Below, piece by piece: positions 10,750-45,473 of a stretch of DNA of 64,000 nucleotides. How positions within the stretch are numbered: position 1 is the stretch's first letter; each line of letters opens with the position of its first letter. Source of the DNA: Lachnospiraceae bacterium (lineage in GTDB: Bacteria > Bacillota > Clostridia > Lachnospirales > Lachnospiraceae); the NCBI GenBank assembly GCA_029225065.1, contig JAQXVT010000027.1, positions 1 to 64,000 on the forward strand, written 5' to 3'. A program made the translations under genes and the position numbers. The notes beneath the pieces are model-generated. The model worked only from the letters and a program-made list of their open reading frames with translations, did no database searches and was not told where the DNA came from.

Positions 10750-12042
10750 TTATTTCTCGAACCGTACCCGGATCGAATTCGCATGTGCGGTCAGCTTCTC
10801 TGCCTCCGCAAACGCAATGATATCCTGATGGATCGGTTCCAACGCCTCTTTCGAATAATAAACAATGCTCGATTTCTTAATGAAATCATCGACCGACAGT
10901 GCGGAGAAGAATTTCGCCGTGCCGTTCGTCGGAAGCACGTGGTTCGGGCCTGCGAAGTAATCGCCGAGCGGCTCACTGCTGTACTCGCCGATGAAAATCG
11001 CACCCGCATTGCGGATCTTTGTCATAACCTCAAATGGATTGCGCGTCACAATCTCCAGATGCTCGGATGCAATGGAATTGACCGCGTCGATTGCGTCCTC
11101 CATCGAATCTGCAAGCAGGATAAAACCGTACTGATCCAGTGATTTCTGGATGATCTCTGCTCTGGAAAGTGTCTTTAAGAAGCCCTCGATCTCTTTTTGT
11201 ACTTCCTTTGCAAGCTCCTCGCTCGTCGTCACAAGGATTGCAGAGGCCATCTCATCGTGCTCCGCCTGAGAGAGAAGGTCAGCTGCCACGTAACGCGGTG
11301 TCGCGCTGTCATCTGCCAGCACGAGAATCTCACTCGGGCCTGCCACAGAATCGATGCTCACATGACCGTAGACTGCACGCTTTGCAAGCGCCACATAAAT
11401 ATTGCCCGGTCCTGTGATTTTATCAGCCTTCGGAATACTCTCCGTACCATAGGCCAGCGCTGCAATTGCCTGCGCGCCGCCTACCTTGTAAATTTCATCC
11501 GTACCTGCCTCATGCGCTGCTACCAGCGTGGAAACCGGAATCTTTCCGTCCTTTCCAGGCGGTGTCGTCATCACGATCCGGCCGACACCGGCTACCTTGG
11601 CCGGAACTACGTTCATCAGAACGGAAGACGGATAGACTGCCTTTCCGCCCGGCACATACACGCCGACCGTTCCAAGCGGAGTGATCTTCTGTCCGAGAAT
11701 GGTTCCGTTTTCGGTGGTGTCAAACCAGCTGTATTTTTTCTGTTTTTCATGGTAACTGCGGATGTTCACCAGAGATTTGCGGATCACATCAAGAAGTGAC
11801 GGATCAACCTCACGATACGCTTCCTCAATCTCCTCTTTTGTGACGCGGATCGTTTCTGCCGTAATCTTTGCACCGTCAAATTTCTCCGTGTAAGAAAACA
11901 GCGCCTCATCTCCGTGCGCACGCACCTCCTGAATAATCGCGTCCACGCGAGCCTCAAATTCCCCGTAATTGTTCGGGCTGCGTTTCAGCAGATGATTCAG
12001 AATATCCTGTTTCGTTTCCTGTGTCAGTTTTACCAGTTTCAT
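10750..12042 (-). CDS. hisD: Histidinol dehydrogenase
   Basis: Oxidises L-histidinol to L-histidine in two NAD-dependent steps, the last reactions of the pathway; zinc enzyme. About 430 residues, full length. Recognisable blocks: VPGGKAVYPSSVLMN, GGAQAIAALAYG, GPGNIYVALAKR, AGPSEILVLAD, the zinc/catalytic QAEHDEMA, and FAGPNHVLPT near the C-terminus. ATG 12042 is preferred over the GTG at 12051 because GAGGGG lies 8 nt upstream of the ATG. It starts 12 nt after the hisG stop, tightly coupled in the operon. Confidence 0.97.
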   Translation of the reverse strand: MKLVKLTQETKQDILNHLLKRSPNNYGEFEARVDAIIQEVRAHGDEALFSYTEKFDGAKITAETIRVTKEEIEEAYREVDPSLLDVIRKSLVNIRSYHEKQKKYSWFDTTENGTILGQKITPLGTVGVYVPGGKAVYPSSVLMNVVPAKVAGVGRIVMTTPPGKDGKIPVSTLVAAHEAGTDEIYKVGGAQAIAALAYGTESIPKADKITGPGNIYVALAKRAVYGHVSIDSVAGPSEILVLADDSATPRYVAADLLSQAEHDEMASAILVTTSEELAKEVQKEIEGFLKTLSRAEIIQKSLDQYGFILLADSMEDAIDAVNSIASEHLEIVTRNPFEVMTKIRNAGAIFIGEYSSEPLGDYFAGPNHVLPTNGTAKFFSALSVDDFIKKSSIVYYSKEALEPIHQDIIAFAEAEKLTAHANSIRVRFEK

Positions 12043-40706: not shown

Positions 40707-41849
40707 TTACTCTTCCGGCGCGATTGTCTTCAGCCATTTAATCTGACCATCCTCATACGTGTTGACAACCACCGGTTTGATCGCATCTCCATTCTCATCG
40801 AGGTAGATATCACCGGCTACGCCGCTGAATTTCATTCCTGTCATTCCCTTCACCAGAGACGCGGTATCGGAACCGCCGCCGTTCACCGCAGCTTCCTCAA
40901 GCATGTACATTGCATCGTAATACAGTGCTGCACATGCATTCAGGCTGTCAGAACCGTATTTCTCTGTATATTTGGATACGAATTCCTGTACCGCCGGCGC
41001 AGTATCCTCGGACGAATAGTGATTTGTAAAATAACAGTTCTCAAAATAATCCTCAAGACCTGTCGTATCAGCGCCGTCCCAGCCGTCGCCTCCCATGATC
41101 GCACCCTCAAATCCTGCATCTCTTACCTGCTGTACAAGCAGCGGAACGGTATCAAGGAAGCATGGATAGAACACGAAATCCGCATCGCTTCCGACTGCCT
41201 GTGTTGCCTGCGCCGTAAAATCGGTATCGGTTGTCGTACATTCTCCGACATATACAACCTCGATTCCATTTGCTTCTGCACTTTCCACAAACGCATCCTT
41301 CAGACCATTGGAATAATCATCATCCTTTGCGTAAATGATCGCTGCCTTTGTATAGCCCTGATCCTTTGCAAATGCAGCCGCCATCTTGCCCTGATACGGG
41401 TCGATAAAGCAATTTCGGAAGATCGTCGGGCCAATCTGCGTTACCTGATAATTTGTTGCTCCGGTTGCCAGGAGAAGCATATTGTCATCCGCCGCAAGCT
41501 CTGCCATTGGAAGGGTTACTGATGAGAAGAAGGAACCAACAATTGCTTCCGGCTCTTCTGCCATCAGGGAATTGTAAGCATTAACGGCCTGCTTTGCATC
41601 CTTTGCATCATCTGCAACCTTTCCGCCGTTGATGATCTCAATTTTGTACTCTGCATCAGAAGCATTAATCTCTTCTACTGCCATATCAATCGCATTCTGT
41701 GCACCTTCTCCATATACTGCAGAGCCACCTGTCATCGCACATACTGCTCCGACCCGAATCACCTGATCCTCTTCTGCCCCTGCCGTCATTGCTCCAAGAG
41801 ATACTGTCATTGCGAACACCAGCATTGCACTTACCATTTTCTTTTTCAT
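40707..41849 (-). CDS. livJ: Liv-type ABC transporter amino-acid-binding protein
   Basis: Extracellular receptor of the periplasmic-binding-protein type I fold, 380 residues. Signal peptide about 1-24 (MKKKMVSAMLVFAMTVSL...), then RVGAVCAMTGGSAVYGEG and AIDMAVEEINA, the usual Leu/Ile/Val-receptor start; GATNYQVTQ contains ligand-carboxylate-binding residues. The natural ligand may not be a branched-chain amino acid: the gene diverges from a 5-oxoproline/D-glutamate cassette. First gene of its operon with GGAGGAG before ATG 41849. Confidence 0.9.
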   Translation of the reverse strand: MKKKMVSAMLVFAMTVSLGAMTAGAEEDQVIRVGAVCAMTGGSAVYGEGAQNAIDMAVEEINASDAEYKIEIINGGKVADDAKDAKQAVNAYNSLMAEEPEAIVGSFFSSVTLPMAELAADDNMLLLATGATNYQVTQIGPTIFRNCFIDPYQGKMAAAFAKDQGYTKAAIIYAKDDDYSNGLKDAFVESAEANGIEVVYVGECTTTDTDFTAQATQAVGSDADFVFYPCFLDTVPLLVQQVRDAGFEGAIMGGDGWDGADTTGLEDYFENCYFTNHYSSEDTAPAVQEFVSKYTEKYGSDSLNACAALYYDAMYMLEEAAVNGGGSDTASLVKGMTGMKFSGVAGDIYLDENGDAIKPVVVNTYEDGQIKWLKTIAPEE

Positions 41850-41924
41850 AACAAATCTCCTCCTTTATTTTTTCTATGCGGATACTGTGATTGCCTTCTC
41901 ACCTGCATCCGATAACAGTTACCA

Positions 41925-41985
41925 CCGGAAGGGAGTTTCCGGAAAACAAAAAAAGCGCCGGCAGTCTTACGGCTGCCCAACGCCC
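41925..41985 (-). terminator. Promoter-proximal intrinsic terminator and second hairpin in the livJ leader
   Basis: Minus-strand RNA begins near 41998. Within it, GGGCAG... pairs with CTGCC and flanking GCG/CGC (arms 41973-41985 and 41955-41964) and is followed by seven T (41948-41954). A second hairpin CCGGAA/TTCCGG (41925-41942) follows. Terminator geometry about 50 nt from the transcription start implies attenuation. Confidence 0.75.
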
Positions 41986-42004
41986 TTGTTTGTCTATGCG
42001 TCAG

Positions 42005-42033
42005 ACTATAACCCAAACCTTCAAGCCTGTCAA
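42005..42033 (-). promoter_or_regulatory. Sigma-A promoter of the liv operon
   Basis: Minus strand: perfect -35 TTGACA (42028-42033), 17-nt spacer, -10 TATAGT (42005-42010). Back-to-back with the pxp promoter; 48 nt of T-rich sequence lie between the two -35 boxes. Confidence 0.85.
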
Positions 42034-42081
42034 GCCCCATTTTTTATTTTTGCTGTTTTCGCTGTTTTTATTTTTGCGTTC

Positions 42082-42110
42082 TTGACTTTTTCCTACTTCC
42101 GCTATACAAT
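42082..42110 (+). promoter_or_regulatory. Sigma-A promoter of the pxp/D-glutamate-cyclase operon
   Basis: -35 TTGACT (42082-42087), 17-nt spacer, -10 TACAAT (42105-42110). Confidence 0.8.
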
Positions 42111-42116
42111 CATTGC

Positions 42117-42199
42117 GAAGACGACAAAGAAGCCGTGTGTTTCTTTGCTGTCTTCTTTTTTATTTTCTGCGGCGGTCTGTAAGCTGGATGGCCGACCGC
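42117..42199 (+). terminator. Promoter-proximal intrinsic terminator and second hairpin in the pxp leader
   Basis: GAAGACGACAAAGAA (42117-42131) pairs with TTCTTTGCTGTCTTC (42141-42155) at 13 of 15 positions, followed by TTTTTT (42156-42161). The predicted start of transcription is about 42117, so the hairpin forms at the very 5' end. A second hairpin GCGGTC/GACCGC lies at 42172-42199, before the ribosome-binding site. Confidence 0.75.
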
Positions 42200-42221
42200 A
42201 ACAAACTAAGGGGGCGCATCT

Positions 42222-42959
42222 ATGAAAACAGATCTGAGGCTTCTGCCCGCCGGTGACAGCGGCATTGTGGCAGAGTTTGGAAATACAATTGATCCACTTG
42301 TTAATGATCAGGTTCAGGCGCTGGCGGACGCAATTCACAGCACCGGCCTTTCCGGGATCCGGGAACTGATTCCTTCTTTTCGATCCCTGCTGATTCTCTA
42401 TGATCCTGGAATTCTTTCTTATCAGAAGCTGACTGAGACACTGAAGCAGCTCTCTTCCTCCCTCTCCTGTGGAGTACAGAAGGAGAAACGGATTCATCTC
42501 ATCCCATGCTGCTACGGTTCCCATTTCGGCCCCGATCTTTCCGACATGGAAAAAGCTACCGGCCTTTCCAGAGAAGAAATCATCGCCATTCACAGCGGTG
42601 TCGATTATCGCATCTATATGCTTGGCTTTCTTCCCGGTTTTGTTTACCTCGGCGGTCTGGATAAACGGATCGAGATGCCGCGTCTTTCCACGCCGCGTGT
42701 AAAAATTCCGCAGGGCGCCGTCGGAATCGGCGGAAGTCAGACCGGTGTCTATCCTCTCGATTCCCCTGGTGGCTGGAGACTCATCGGAGGAACTCCGGTT
42801 GATTTTTATGATCCGAACCGTCCGGAGCCGGTCCTTTGCAAGGCCGGGGAATACATCCGCTTCGTTCCGATCTCATCATGCGACTATTACGACATCCGGC
42901 AGCAGCAGGCAAAAGGTCTTTATCAGCCGGAAATACGAACAGAAACGGAGGCGGTTTAG
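42222..42959 (+). CDS. pxpB: 5-oxoprolinase subunit B
   Basis: Subunit of the ATP-dependent prokaryotic 5-oxoprolinase that opens 5-oxoproline (pyroglutamate) to glutamate; also known as KipI, an allophanate-hydrolase-subunit-1-like protein. 245 residues. N-terminal LPAGDSGIVAEFG, conserved core YMLGFLPGFVYLGGLD and GAVGIGGSQTGVYPLDSPGGWRLIG. GGGGG 7 nt before ATG 42222. Next gene begins right after its stop. Confidence 0.95.
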   Translation: MKTDLRLLPAGDSGIVAEFGNTIDPLVNDQVQALADAIHSTGLSGIRELIPSFRSLLILYDPGILSYQKLTETLKQLSSSLSCGVQKEKRIHLIPCCYGSHFGPDLSDMEKATGLSREEIIAIHSGVDYRIYMLGFLPGFVYLGGLDKRIEMPRLSTPRVKIPQGAVGIGGSQTGVYPLDSPGGWRLIGGTPVDFYDPNRPEPVLCKAGEYIRFVPISSCDYYDIRQQQAKGLYQPEIRTETEAV

Positions 42960-43871
42960 ATGGCAGTCAAAGTAATTCAGCCAGGCGCACTGACTACCGT
43001 TCAGGATCTTGGCCGGTTCGGTTATCAGGAATCCGGCATGCAGCCCTGCGGTGTAATGGATCAGCGTTCTTATGCGATTGCAAATACACTTGTGGGAAAC
43101 CAGAATGGAGAAGCCGCTTTGGAGCTGTCTTTATTTGGAGGCAGCTATCAGTTTGATGCTCCCTGCATCCTTGCACTTACCGGAGCTGACATGGCACCAT
43201 CCCTCAACCGGAAGCCCTGTCCGATGAACCGGGCCGTCCGTATAAAATCCGGTGATGTGCTCACATTCGGTTTTGCAAAAAGCGGATGCCGGACTTATCT
43301 TGCCGTATCCGGAGGCATTGATGTACCGCCAGTGATGGGCAGCCGTTCTACCAATCTGAAATGCCGGATCGGCGGTTTTTTCGGCCGGGCACTTAAGGCC
43401 GGGGATGTACTGCCGGTGGGAAGAGACGATTCTGGATTTGAAGAATTAAAGGAGCTCTGGTACTCCCAGCCGGAATATCCGGATCACGTGACGCTCCGTG
43501 TTGTGGAGGGACCGCAGGCAGATTATTTTACCTCATCCGGACTGGATACCTTTTATTCTGAAGCTTATACCGTTACGCAGGAAAGTGACCGAATGGGCTG
43601 CCGCCTCGATGGGCCGGCAATCACCATCTGTCACGGAAGCGATATCATCTCCGATGGAATCGTGTTCGGCTCTATTCAGATCACCTCCGCCGGCAGACCG
43701 ATCATTCTTATGGCAGACCGGCAGACTACAGGCGGATACGCAAAAATCGGAACAGTATGCACTGCCGATCTTCCTGTGATTGCCCAGTGTCAGCCAGGGG
43801 CCGTCATTCATTTTAAGAAAATTTCCGTGGAGGAAGCGCAGAAGCTTCTGCAAACCTCCCGTACCATTTAA
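42960..43871 (+). CDS. pxpC: 5-oxoprolinase subunit C
   Basis: Partner of PxpB (KipA, allophanate-hydrolase-subunit-2-like), 303 residues. Typical GALTTVQDLGRFGYQ, GVMDQRSYAIAN, and C-terminal GGYAKIGTVCTADLPVIAQ. Starts 0-1 nt after the pxpB stop (TAG ATG), indicating equimolar, coupled synthesis of the two subunits. Confidence 0.95.
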   Translation: MAVKVIQPGALTTVQDLGRFGYQESGMQPCGVMDQRSYAIANTLVGNQNGEAALELSLFGGSYQFDAPCILALTGADMAPSLNRKPCPMNRAVRIKSGDVLTFGFAKSGCRTYLAVSGGIDVPPVMGSRSTNLKCRIGGFFGRALKAGDVLPVGRDDSGFEELKELWYSQPEYPDHVTLRVVEGPQADYFTSSGLDTFYSEAYTVTQESDRMGCRLDGPAITICHGSDIISDGIVFGSIQITSAGRPIILMADRQTTGGYAKIGTVCTADLPVIAQCQPGAVIHFKKISVEEAQKLLQTSRTI

Positions 43872-43885
43872 AGGAGGATTTTATC

Positions 43886-44671
43886 ATGGATTATACAACA
43901 ATGTCTCCGAAGGAGGTTCGTGCTCTTATCGCAAAAGGTGAGATTACAGGACCCACTGCCGGCATGTGTGCCGGATATGCACAGGCCAATCTTGTCATCC
44001 TTCCAAAGAATCTGGCCTATGATTTTCTGCTTTTCACACAGCGCAATCCCAGATCCTGCCCGCTTCTTGAGGTTTCTGATACAGGAAGCCGTTTTCTGCA
44101 CACGATCGCAAAGGATGCGGATATCGCCACAGAAATTCCGCGTTACCGCATCTACCGTGATGGCGTATTAGATGGAGAATATACCGATATCTCCTCCTTC
44201 TGGCAGGATGATTTTGTCAGCTTCCTGATTGGCTGCAGTTTTTCTTTTGAATCAGCCATGCTTGAGGCAAACGTCCCGGTTCGCCACATCGAAGAAAGCT
44301 GTAATGTTCCTATGTATAAGACAAATATTCCCTGCGAATCAGCCGGCGTCTTCCACGGAAACATGGTGGTAAGCATGCGCCCCATCCCTTATGAGCTGAT
44401 TCCGCGCGCTGTACTCATTACCGGTGAGATGCCGCGCGTACATGGCGCACCAATCCACATTGGAAATCCGGAGCATATCGGCATTCACGACCTCATGCAT
44501 CCGGATTTCGGTGATATGGTTACCATCCGCGAGGGCGAGGTTCCGGTCTTCTGGCTGTGCGGTGTCACTCCGCAGAATGTCGTGATGGAGTCCCGTCCTT
44601 CGCTTGCCATCACCCATGCACCGGGCCATATGCTTATTACTGATGTAAAAAATGTTGAATTAAAATACTGA
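43886..44671 (+). CDS. DUF1445 (YcsI-type) putative hydro-lyase, D-glutamate-cyclase N-domain homologue
   Basis: 261 residues, full length for DUF1445/UPF0317 proteins such as YcsI, which is encoded with pxpABC in B. subtilis. Blocks: TGPTAGMCAGYAQANLVILP, CSFSFESAMLEANVPVRHIE, and the C-terminal THAPGHMLITD. In the mammalian mitochondrial D-glutamate cyclase this domain is fused to DUF4392, whose homologue is two genes downstream here. GGAGG 8-9 nt upstream. Function proposed: conversion of D-glutamate to 5-oxo-D-proline together with that partner. Confidence 0.88.
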   Translation: MDYTTMSPKEVRALIAKGEITGPTAGMCAGYAQANLVILPKNLAYDFLLFTQRNPRSCPLLEVSDTGSRFLHTIAKDADIATEIPRYRIYRDGVLDGEYTDISSFWQDDFVSFLIGCSFSFESAMLEANVPVRHIEESCNVPMYKTNIPCESAGVFHGNMVVSMRPIPYELIPRAVLITGEMPRVHGAPIHIGNPEHIGIHDLMHPDFGDMVTIREGEVPVFWLCGVTPQNVVMESRPSLAITHAPGHMLITDVKNVELKY

Positions 44672-44696: not shown

Positions 44697-45473
44697 ATGA
44701 AAACTGTAGATTTAAACTGTGATCTCGGAGAAAGCTTCGGAAATTATAAATGTGGTATGGATGAAGAGATTCTTCCTTTTATCACTTCTGCCAATGTAGC
44801 CTGCGGATTCCATGCATCAGATCCGGTTGTCATGAGCAAAACTGTAAAAAGTGCCGTAAAAAATCAGGTCCGCATCGGTGCACATCCGGGTTTTCCTGAT
44901 CTCGTCGGATTCGGACGTCGGAAAATGGACCTTTCACCGGCTGAGATCACTGCAATTACCCAGTATCAGATCGGCGCTTTAAAAGCCTTCTGCACAGCGG
45001 AAGGTACCACACTCCAGCACGTGAAGCCGCACGGTGCGCTTTACAATATGGCAGTAAAAGATGCCAAAATTGCGCAGGCAATCTGTGAGGGAATCGCTTC
45101 AGTCGATTCCTCCCTGATTCTCCTCGCTCCGGGCAGCAGTCAAATGACGATCGCCGCAAGGCAGATCGGCCTGAAAACGGCCAGTGAAGTGTTTGCCGAC
45201 CGCGCCTACGAGGAGGATGGTTCTCTCGTTGCCAGAAGCAAGCCGGGCGCAATGATCACCGATCCGGAGCTTGCAATCAGCCGGGTACTCCAGATGGTAG
45301 AAAAAGGCACCGTCATTTCCATCACCGGCAAAGAGATCGAACTTGCTGCAGATTCCATCTGCGTACACGGTGACAGCCCGGCCGCACTTACCTTTGTAAA
45401 AAATATCCGTCAGGCACTGGTTGATCATGGTATCCGCATCGCGTCGATTGAGGAAACTCTGCGGCAGCACTGA
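44697..45473 (+). CDS. pxpA: 5-oxoprolinase subunit A
   Basis: LamB/YcsF family subunit, 258 residues, required with PxpB and PxpC for 5-oxoproline hydrolysis. Diagnostic DLNCDLGESFG, ANVACGFHASDP, HPGFPDLVGFGRR and HVKPHGALYNM; the conserved Asp/His cluster suggests a metal-dependent deacetylase-like fold. GAGGAA precedes ATG 44697. Its presence makes the pxpA/B/C set complete. Confidence 0.95.
   Translation: MKTVDLNCDLGESFGNYKCGMDEEILPFITSANVACGFHASDPVVMSKTVKSAVKNQVRIGAHPGFPDLVGFGRRKMDLSPAEITAITQYQIGALKAFCTAEGTTLQHVKPHGALYNMAVKDAKIAQAICEGIASVDSSLILLAPGSSQMTIAARQIGLKTASEVFADRAYEEDGSLVARSKPGAMITDPELAISRVLQMVEKGTVISITGKEIELAADSICVHGDSPAALTFVKNIRQALVDHGIRIASIEETLRQH

Follow-up and report, generated by a model that had tools for sequence, protein, structure and literature searches.

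Divergent liv and pxp leaders of a Lachnospiraceae genome as probable single-hexaloop ANTAR attenuators of a nitrogen regulon

The liv and pxp operons of a Lachnospiraceae bacterium are read from back-to-back promoters, and we propose that the leaders of both are attenuators of the ANTAR type, in a variant with a single hexaloop at the 5' end of the transcript, which gate a nitrogen regulon (probability of roughly 0.8). The proposal is built from sequence, namely promoters, terminators, overlapping hairpins, their conservation, the co-occurrence of ANTAR genes and the content of the regulon. The window, i.e. the whole stretch of 64,000 nucleotides that was analysed, belongs to a genome of 3.18 Mb. 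A first-pass annotation of this DNA had suggested that one antitermination or attenuation mechanism serves both operons, and shared antitermination is well supported by the comparative evidence presented below.

Promoters and terminators between liv and pxp

On the reverse strand, the liv promoter (TTGACA-17-TATAGT, 42005 to 42033, 11 of 12 consensus matches, predicted start at about 41998-41997) precedes an operon whose first gene (40707 to 41849, reverse strand) encodes a livK-like periplasmic binding protein (Pfam Peripla_BP_6). The pxp promoter (TTGACT-17-TACAAT, 42082 to 42110, forward strand, 10 of 12 matches, predicted start at about 42117) lies 48 nt away, counted between the two -35 boxes, and is followed on the same strand by pxpB (42222 to 42959, a 5-oxoprolinase subunit, Pfam CT_C_D), pxpC (42960 to 43871, CT_A_B), a gene for a D-glutamate cyclase family protein (43886 to 44671, D-Glu_cyclase) and pxpA (44697 to 45473, LamB_YcsF). 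Each promoter runs at once into an intrinsic terminator. The one on the liv side (41948 to 41987, reverse strand) has its stem at about 41955-41987 and seven T at 41948-41954, while the pxp terminator (42117 to 42161, forward strand) consists of a stem at 42117-42155 and six T at 42156-42161. The 54-nt liv leader folds at -21.9 kcal/mol (z -3.9) and the 50-nt pxp leader at -19.1 kcal/mol (z -5.1), values that none of 200 shuffles equalled in either case. A simple consensus scan of positions 41000-43200 returned six terminator-like sites (2.4 ± 1.6 in shuffles) and three promoter-like sites (2.8 ± 1.8 in shuffles), and by itself it is no proof; the real support comes from conservation in relatives.

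To follow the liv leader through the genus, livK was matched at E ≤ 1e-40 in 25 of 47 genomes, own genome included, and 16 of the genes found, the window's among them, had at least 80% identity. Upstream sequence was available for 15 of these (the window and 14 relatives), and all 15 carry the TTGACA-17-TATAGT promoter with 11 of 12 matches and a terminator 13-22 nt further on. The scanned stretch before more distant homologs at 61% (L073, L074) and 42% identity (L075) held no such leader; five paralogs (L076-L079 and L082) have a promoter and a terminator with different hairpins, L080 has a weak, distant site alone and L081 has none. On the divergent side, promoter and terminator are present in all 13 leaders with enough sequence (the window and 12 relatives), 12 of which, the window's included, were recovered by the detector and one (L063), with its terminator behind an insertion, by eye. 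A comparison of the whole intergenic DNA against 98 genomes was set aside: 17 matched at E ≤ 0.01, own genome included, and the others, of 22-47 nt, were judged to be chance.

The coordinates, the folding and the conservation thus confirm the divergent promoters with immediate terminators that the first-pass annotation had described, and the stems, whose lack of conservation in relatives it had named as grounds for refutation, are kept in 15 of 15 livK and 13 of 13 divergent leaders. A further part of that description, a second and smaller hairpin on each side, does not hold as a conserved element. The liv one (CCGGAA...UUCCGG, 41925 to 41942, reverse strand) lies in a region past the terminator that folds better than shuffles (z -3.0), and inspection by eye found none in the relatives' leaders; the pxp one (42168 to 42200, forward strand), upstream of the ribosome-binding site, is not above chance (z 0.09).

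Hexaloop hairpins and the terminators they overlap

Alignment of the liv leaders places their invariant bases in a cluster, AC-RARGGY-GUU (15 of 15, window included), able to fold into a short stem topped by a loop of six bases, and the divergent leaders share CG[AG]C-A..G..-G (12 of 12, window included). In the window, the candidate ANTAR sites are a liv hairpin, AAC[AAGGGC]GUU (41979 to 41990, reverse strand, 3 bp, +1.3 kcal/mol), which would be the antiterminator, and a pxp hairpin, ACGAC[AAAGAA]GCCGU (42121 to 42136, forward strand, +0.3 kcal/mol), which has an A.C mismatch in its second pair. These are the weakest of the five hairpins computed, the other three ranging from -1.1 to -3.1 kcal/mol. 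The glnA leaders of the genus belong to the same design, and in the window's genome the string ACAAGGGCGTT is common to the glnA and liv leaders. For this comparison the glnA side was taken from 20 of the 46 other genus genomes plus the own genome, and 19 leaders were readable, the unreadable loci being one contig without glnA and one without its start. The hexaloop occurs in 18 of the 19, and 16 combine it with a terminator, 14 of these directly behind a promoter.

The fourth loop base is G in 15 of 15 liv, 13 of 13 divergent and 18 of 19 glnA leaders, window included. These counts are the unbiased ones, since in a wider set of 77 leaders (78 loci entered, 77 left after loop location and duplicate removal) the loop finder itself demands G4, which is therefore there by construction. 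The first loop base is A in all 13 leaders of the pxp type, whereas of the 77 leaders of the liv/glnA type 42 have A there and 35 have G; both window leaders have A. The loop is closed by a C:G pair in 31 of 31 liv/glnA and 13 of 13 pxp-type leaders, and the wider set retains the closure in 76 of 77 and a stem of at least 3 bp, G-U allowed, also in 76 of 77. The window's pxp copy is an exception, its A.C mismatch leaving no three unbroken pairs. Published targets of EutV and NasR share both G4 and the C:G closure (PMC8934654, PMC7496416).

Covariation was assessed in an alignment of 31 leaders (15 liv and 16 glnA), which leaves out three glnA leaders, two having a hexaloop and no passing terminator (L126, L131) and one having no hexaloop (L130). 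The terminator consensus comprises 13 pairs, 8 of them with compensatory changes. For the hexaloop stem, 89.0% of cells are paired, against 32-50% when the stem is slid along the alignment and 85.8% after shuffling (16 of 500 shuffles reach the observed value), with a covariation score of 0.349 against 0.297 in shuffles (15 of 500). The stem is rich in G-U pairs, which suits an RNA hairpin better than a DNA palindrome. In the 13 divergent leaders, the pxp-type stem is paired in 90.4% of cells against 6-54% when slid; by none of the measures does it surpass shuffles (319 of 500), because its sequence hardly varies. Beyond sequence conservation, support for the short hexaloop stem is thin.

The two folds compete for the same bases. 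In the liv type, the 5' arm of the terminator is made of the hexaloop and the 3' strand of the hexaloop hairpin, and in the pxp type the terminator uses the 5' strand and the loop, so that in both types one fold excludes the other. The terminator stem does not include the closing C (column 7), which is kept in 31 of 31 leaders and is therefore not explained by terminator function alone. When 354,543 bp of the window's genome were scanned with a strict hexaloop rule, the liv and glnA leaders alone were recovered; the pxp leader was missed, as the rule requires three unbroken pairs. Reversed sequence gave 0 matches and three local shuffles gave 0, 1 and 2, which means that the rule alone is not specific and that conservation carries the case.

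Leaders with a second hexaloop upstream were also sought. P1-like hairpins are not enriched (10 of 77 leaders against 8.1 ± 2.7 in shuffled sequence), and in those leaders whose promoter was detected (50 of 77) the distance from the end of the -10 box to the start of the loop has a median of 16 nt (9 to 58). With a start about 7 nt past the -10 box, most leaders would have no room for P1. Given the missing P1 enrichment, a canonical dual-hexaloop ANTAR leader was ruled out. Promoter and hexaloop are about 70-80 nt apart in the divergent leader L063 (hexaloop 86 nt downstream of the -10 box) and in the glnA leader L128; both keep hexaloop and terminator despite this spacing, and the extreme 5' position is thus not strictly required.

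The ANTAR gene and the genes behind matching leaders

The first-pass annotation had seen no gene for an antiterminator protein, and this has to be revised: according to Pfam, the window's genome has a single ANTAR gene, on another contig and directly downstream of glnA. Since the glnA leader is of the same design, the system probably regulates itself. Pfam ANTAR was found in 47 of 47 genus genomes against 0 of 14 control genomes, and among further loci of the family, the 29 with the best ANTAR scores include 28 at which glnA is present as well. NitR of Clostridium acetobutylicum is likewise linked to glnA.

A phmmer search with the local ANTAR protein returned EutV (6wsh), Rv1626 and NasR. The residues by which EutV contacts RNA were compared in 50 ANTAR proteins (21 genus loci and the 29 best-scoring family loci), where Lys149 and Glu160 are kept in all 50 and Met172 in 49, and where Tyr164 is replaced by His in 46, Arg168 by Gln in 47, Arg175 by Gly in 45 and Arg177 by Asn in 31. 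At the position of EutV Asp54 the window's protein has Gly (alignment read by eye), and the 37 gapless alignment rows have Gly in 34, Ala in 2 and Thr in 1; Pfam gave no match to a receiver domain in the window's protein. The absence of the phospho-acceptor Asp makes phosphorylation unlikely and points to a protein partner, for which glutamine synthetase is a plausible candidate, so that the signal is more likely to come in through such a partner than through a kinase.

To map the regulon, a covariance model termed R1 was run over the genus and the family with Infernal's stricter filters, at which weak matches are lost. The liv leader matches it at E 1.3e-5, its sequence belonging to the model's own alignment. 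At E ≤ 0.01, 45 of the 47 genomes of the genus have R1 leaders, the own genome with five matches. We read 20 genus loci, chosen mostly away from the known glnA and liv matches and with Pfam run on three: nine precede GSIII, three an operon with a circularly permuted ATP-grasp protein, five a small-RNA candidate, one liv and one an amino-acid transporter with tandem attenuators, and one is a false match. Three of the 20 come from the own genome, namely a GSIII leader, a small-RNA leader and the false match (L181, G000:C79), which is an ordinary 3' terminator with no promoter and was rejected; L225 and L283 look like it. The tandem case (L196, G018:C125:11067-11113 and 11158-11207) has two single-hexaloop attenuators in a row before an amino-acid ABC transporter gene (SBP_bac_3). 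An imperfect palindrome like TTTCGGAAAATCTACCGAAA, seen by eye upstream of the GSIII promoter at L183, L186 and L193, is perhaps a site for a DNA-level regulator.

Across the family, R1 matched 139 of 299 genomes at E ≤ 1e-3. Of the best loci, 28 that were new to the analysis were classed by translation, five with a Pfam check, and 23 of them are nitrogen-related, with glnA at six, GSIII at six, P-II/amtB or amtB at five, glutamate synthase at one, amino-acid ABC transporters at two, a PucR regulator at two and peptidase C26 at one; the remaining five (L207, L213, L218, L225 and L227) were not classed or are apparently unrelated. ANTAR occurs in 265 of 299 family genomes, and in 137 of 139 R1-positive against 128 of 160 R1-negative ones (Fisher p 7.5e-8, a test that ignores shared ancestry), while 2 of the 34 ANTAR-negative genomes are R1-positive. 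In a class-wide draw of 245 genomes, 14 had R1 matches at E ≤ 2e-4, of which 11 lie outside the family, and 8 of the 13 loci from these 11 genomes precede GSIII, glutamate synthase, amtB or glnA (by translation, with Pfam on L286 and L285). General nitrogen or glutamine status is a likelier common signal than the glutamate or pyroglutamate offered by the first-pass annotation, because glnA, GSIII, P-II/amtB and glutamate synthase are all preceded by the same leader.

Leaders of the pxp type were located with a pattern of promoter plus hexaloop, which matched 19 of 47 genus genomes at 20 sites in total and, when reversed, matched nowhere. Twelve of the sites are the leaders from which the pattern was designed and eight are new. 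Ten loci (the eight new and two old) were read, with Pfam checks on one aminotransferase and one Lrp/AsnC regulator: a gene for a class IV aminotransferase and then a pxpB-like gene follow in six, an Lrp/AsnC regulator in three and a nitrilase-like gene in one. In the six (L258, L259, L260, L263, L270 and L276) the aminotransferase gene lies between leader and pxpB, so the leader belongs to an aminotransferase-pxp operon; the window and its relative L061 have no aminotransferase gene at this place and carry the leader directly on pxpB. At L262, L267 and L268 the leader is ahead of the Lrp/AsnC regulator gene, which may link amino-acid sensing to this circuit. At 37 pxpB loci (L020-L056, some with partial upstream sequence), the detector found a promoter and a terminator within 350 nt upstream in four, among them the window itself (L027), the one relative with the motif (L021) and a weak, distant case (L051). 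The fourth, L035 in another family genome, has a different strong promoter-proximal hairpin with a terminator upstream of pxpB, and its stem also allows an A1/G4 hexaloop.

The five small-RNA loci (L182, own genome, G000:C73:54246; L184; L187; L189; L195) have the attenuator and behind it a CACACA...GGGC-hairpin-GCCCGCCCCCTC-like element that is conserved, if with a looser match at L187. They have no convincing reading frame of their own, and in at least four of them the listed frames of at least 90 aa are on the strand opposite a converging gene. We regard the attenuator-headed element as a candidate ANTAR-controlled small RNA. In the own genome, its stretch CGCCCCCT is complementary to AGGGGGCG at the ribosome-binding site of pxpB (window positions 42209-42216), which may be chance.

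Proposed mechanism, alternatives and known systems

The mechanism that we infer leads from the predicted start sites through protein binding and readthrough to a nitrogen signal, with glutamine synthetase as a plausible partner. RNA polymerase leaving the strong promoter would meet the intrinsic terminator within about 45-50 nt and by default would release a short dead-end RNA. Under nitrogen shortage, the glnA-linked ANTAR protein would bind the hexaloop hairpin (for liv and glnA C-[R A R G R N]-G, for pxp C-[A N N G N N]-G) into which roughly the initial 20 nt of the RNA fold, and the bound hairpin would occupy bases that the terminator needs, so that no terminator forms and the operon is read.

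Control of the same hairpins by some other RNA-binding protein, or by an RNA sensor of a small molecule, is improbable. It would fit one hairpin in place of the canonical pair, the altered contact residues of the local ANTAR protein and a first loop position that is not strictly A; against it stand the G4 and C:G closure of the hexaloop, the association of the leaders with ANTAR-bearing genomes and a glnA leader of the same design that adjoins the ANTAR gene. The stretch of RNA ahead of the hairpin is so short that it leaves hardly any space for a sensing domain, and Rfam 15 gave no match at or above the gathering score in the window or in nine other loci, with only weak sub-threshold matches of unrelated kinds at E up to 5.

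We consider it very improbable that the 5'-terminal hairpins have no role beyond mRNA stabilisation or insulation between the divergent promoters, readthrough being constitutive. Stem-loops close to a 5' end can stabilise mRNAs, and here the hairpin begins within a few nucleotides of the predicted start, in a divergent layout that could favour insulation. Such a role leaves unaccounted for the T-rich tail behind the stem of the 31 aligned leaders (broken in a few, e.g. L059 and L061), the closing C outside the terminator stem in 31 of 31 and the presence of the same leader ahead of many single nitrogen genes. That the inverted repeats are DNA operators for a repressor, their likeness to terminators being coincidental, is extremely improbable: the repeats do sit just past the -10 boxes, but several stem positions keep their pairing via G-U in 6 to 17 of the 31 sequences, the loop length varies and the sense strand carries the T run. 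Reiterative-transcription attenuation, as at pyrG, was dropped, the predicted transcripts starting without a G run.

ANTAR attenuation through one hexaloop thus remains our preferred reading of the two leaders. A more far-reaching version, to which we give slightly less than even chances, is that a distinct ANTAR subfamily with a non-phosphorylatable receiver-like domain, encoded next to glutamine synthetase, runs the general nitrogen regulon of Lachnospiraceae and some other Clostridia, that a single hexaloop suffices because of its place at the 5' end of the RNA, that glutamine synthetase is the sensor, holding or releasing the ANTAR protein, and that the regulon includes liv, pxp and the small RNA. 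If the leaders do work with one hexaloop, the two-hairpin rule would not be general, and a major nitrogen-control circuit in a large family of gut bacteria would tend to escape searches for dual motifs. Compact leaders of this kind also suit the question of how a promoter-proximal hairpin beats a terminator.

In the literature, among the matches listed, the titles and abstract openings of open-licence papers named neither single-hexaloop attenuators nor this nitrogen regulon, and the closest work was Walshe 2022 (PMC8934654) and an actinobacterial survey (PMC8164766), which in the portion available keeps to dual stem-loops. The leaders resemble the BglG/SacY RAT system in that a single RNA hairpin excludes the terminator, but RAT, at ~29-30 nt, is the target of another protein family (PMC3369931). 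With NitR of Clostridium acetobutylicum they share an antiterminator protein for ammonia assimilation in a clostridium, while NitR was described together with an antisense RNA (PMC4676874). The likeness to NasR/nasF of Klebsiella extends to the C:G closing pair, G4, the overlap with a terminator and the nitrogen genes, and SELEX for NasR selected the terminal C:G pair, A1 and G4; NasR differs in its two-hairpin target and its nitrate-sensing domain, and it binds the single P2 hairpin too, with a poorer affinity of ~12 uM (PMC7496416).

In ANTAR leaders both hairpins were reported as essential, with most targets being nitrogen genes (Ramesh 2012, PMC3369931). EutV and the eut leaders of Enterococcus faecalis share with the present system a G4 hexaloop, the terminator overlap, an ANTAR antiterminator and several leaders per genome, whereas the eut leaders have two hexaloops, both required (PMC3369931, PMC8934654), and those described here have one, near the 5' end. 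EutV is phosphorylated at Asp54 and uses Tyr164 (PMC8934654), where most copies here have Gly and His. ANTAR hexaloops have A and G at positions 1 and 4, with G4 stacking on Tyr164 and A1 uncontacted (Walshe 2022, PMC8934654). In the same paper, an additional single hexaloop is noted in EutX, mycobacterial stem-loops are not all of the dual-motif kind, the minimal ANTAR binding motif is redefined as one hexaloop and single-hexaloop usage is flagged for study (Walshe 2022, PMC8934654), for which the leaders described here, conserved at many loci, would be natural candidates.
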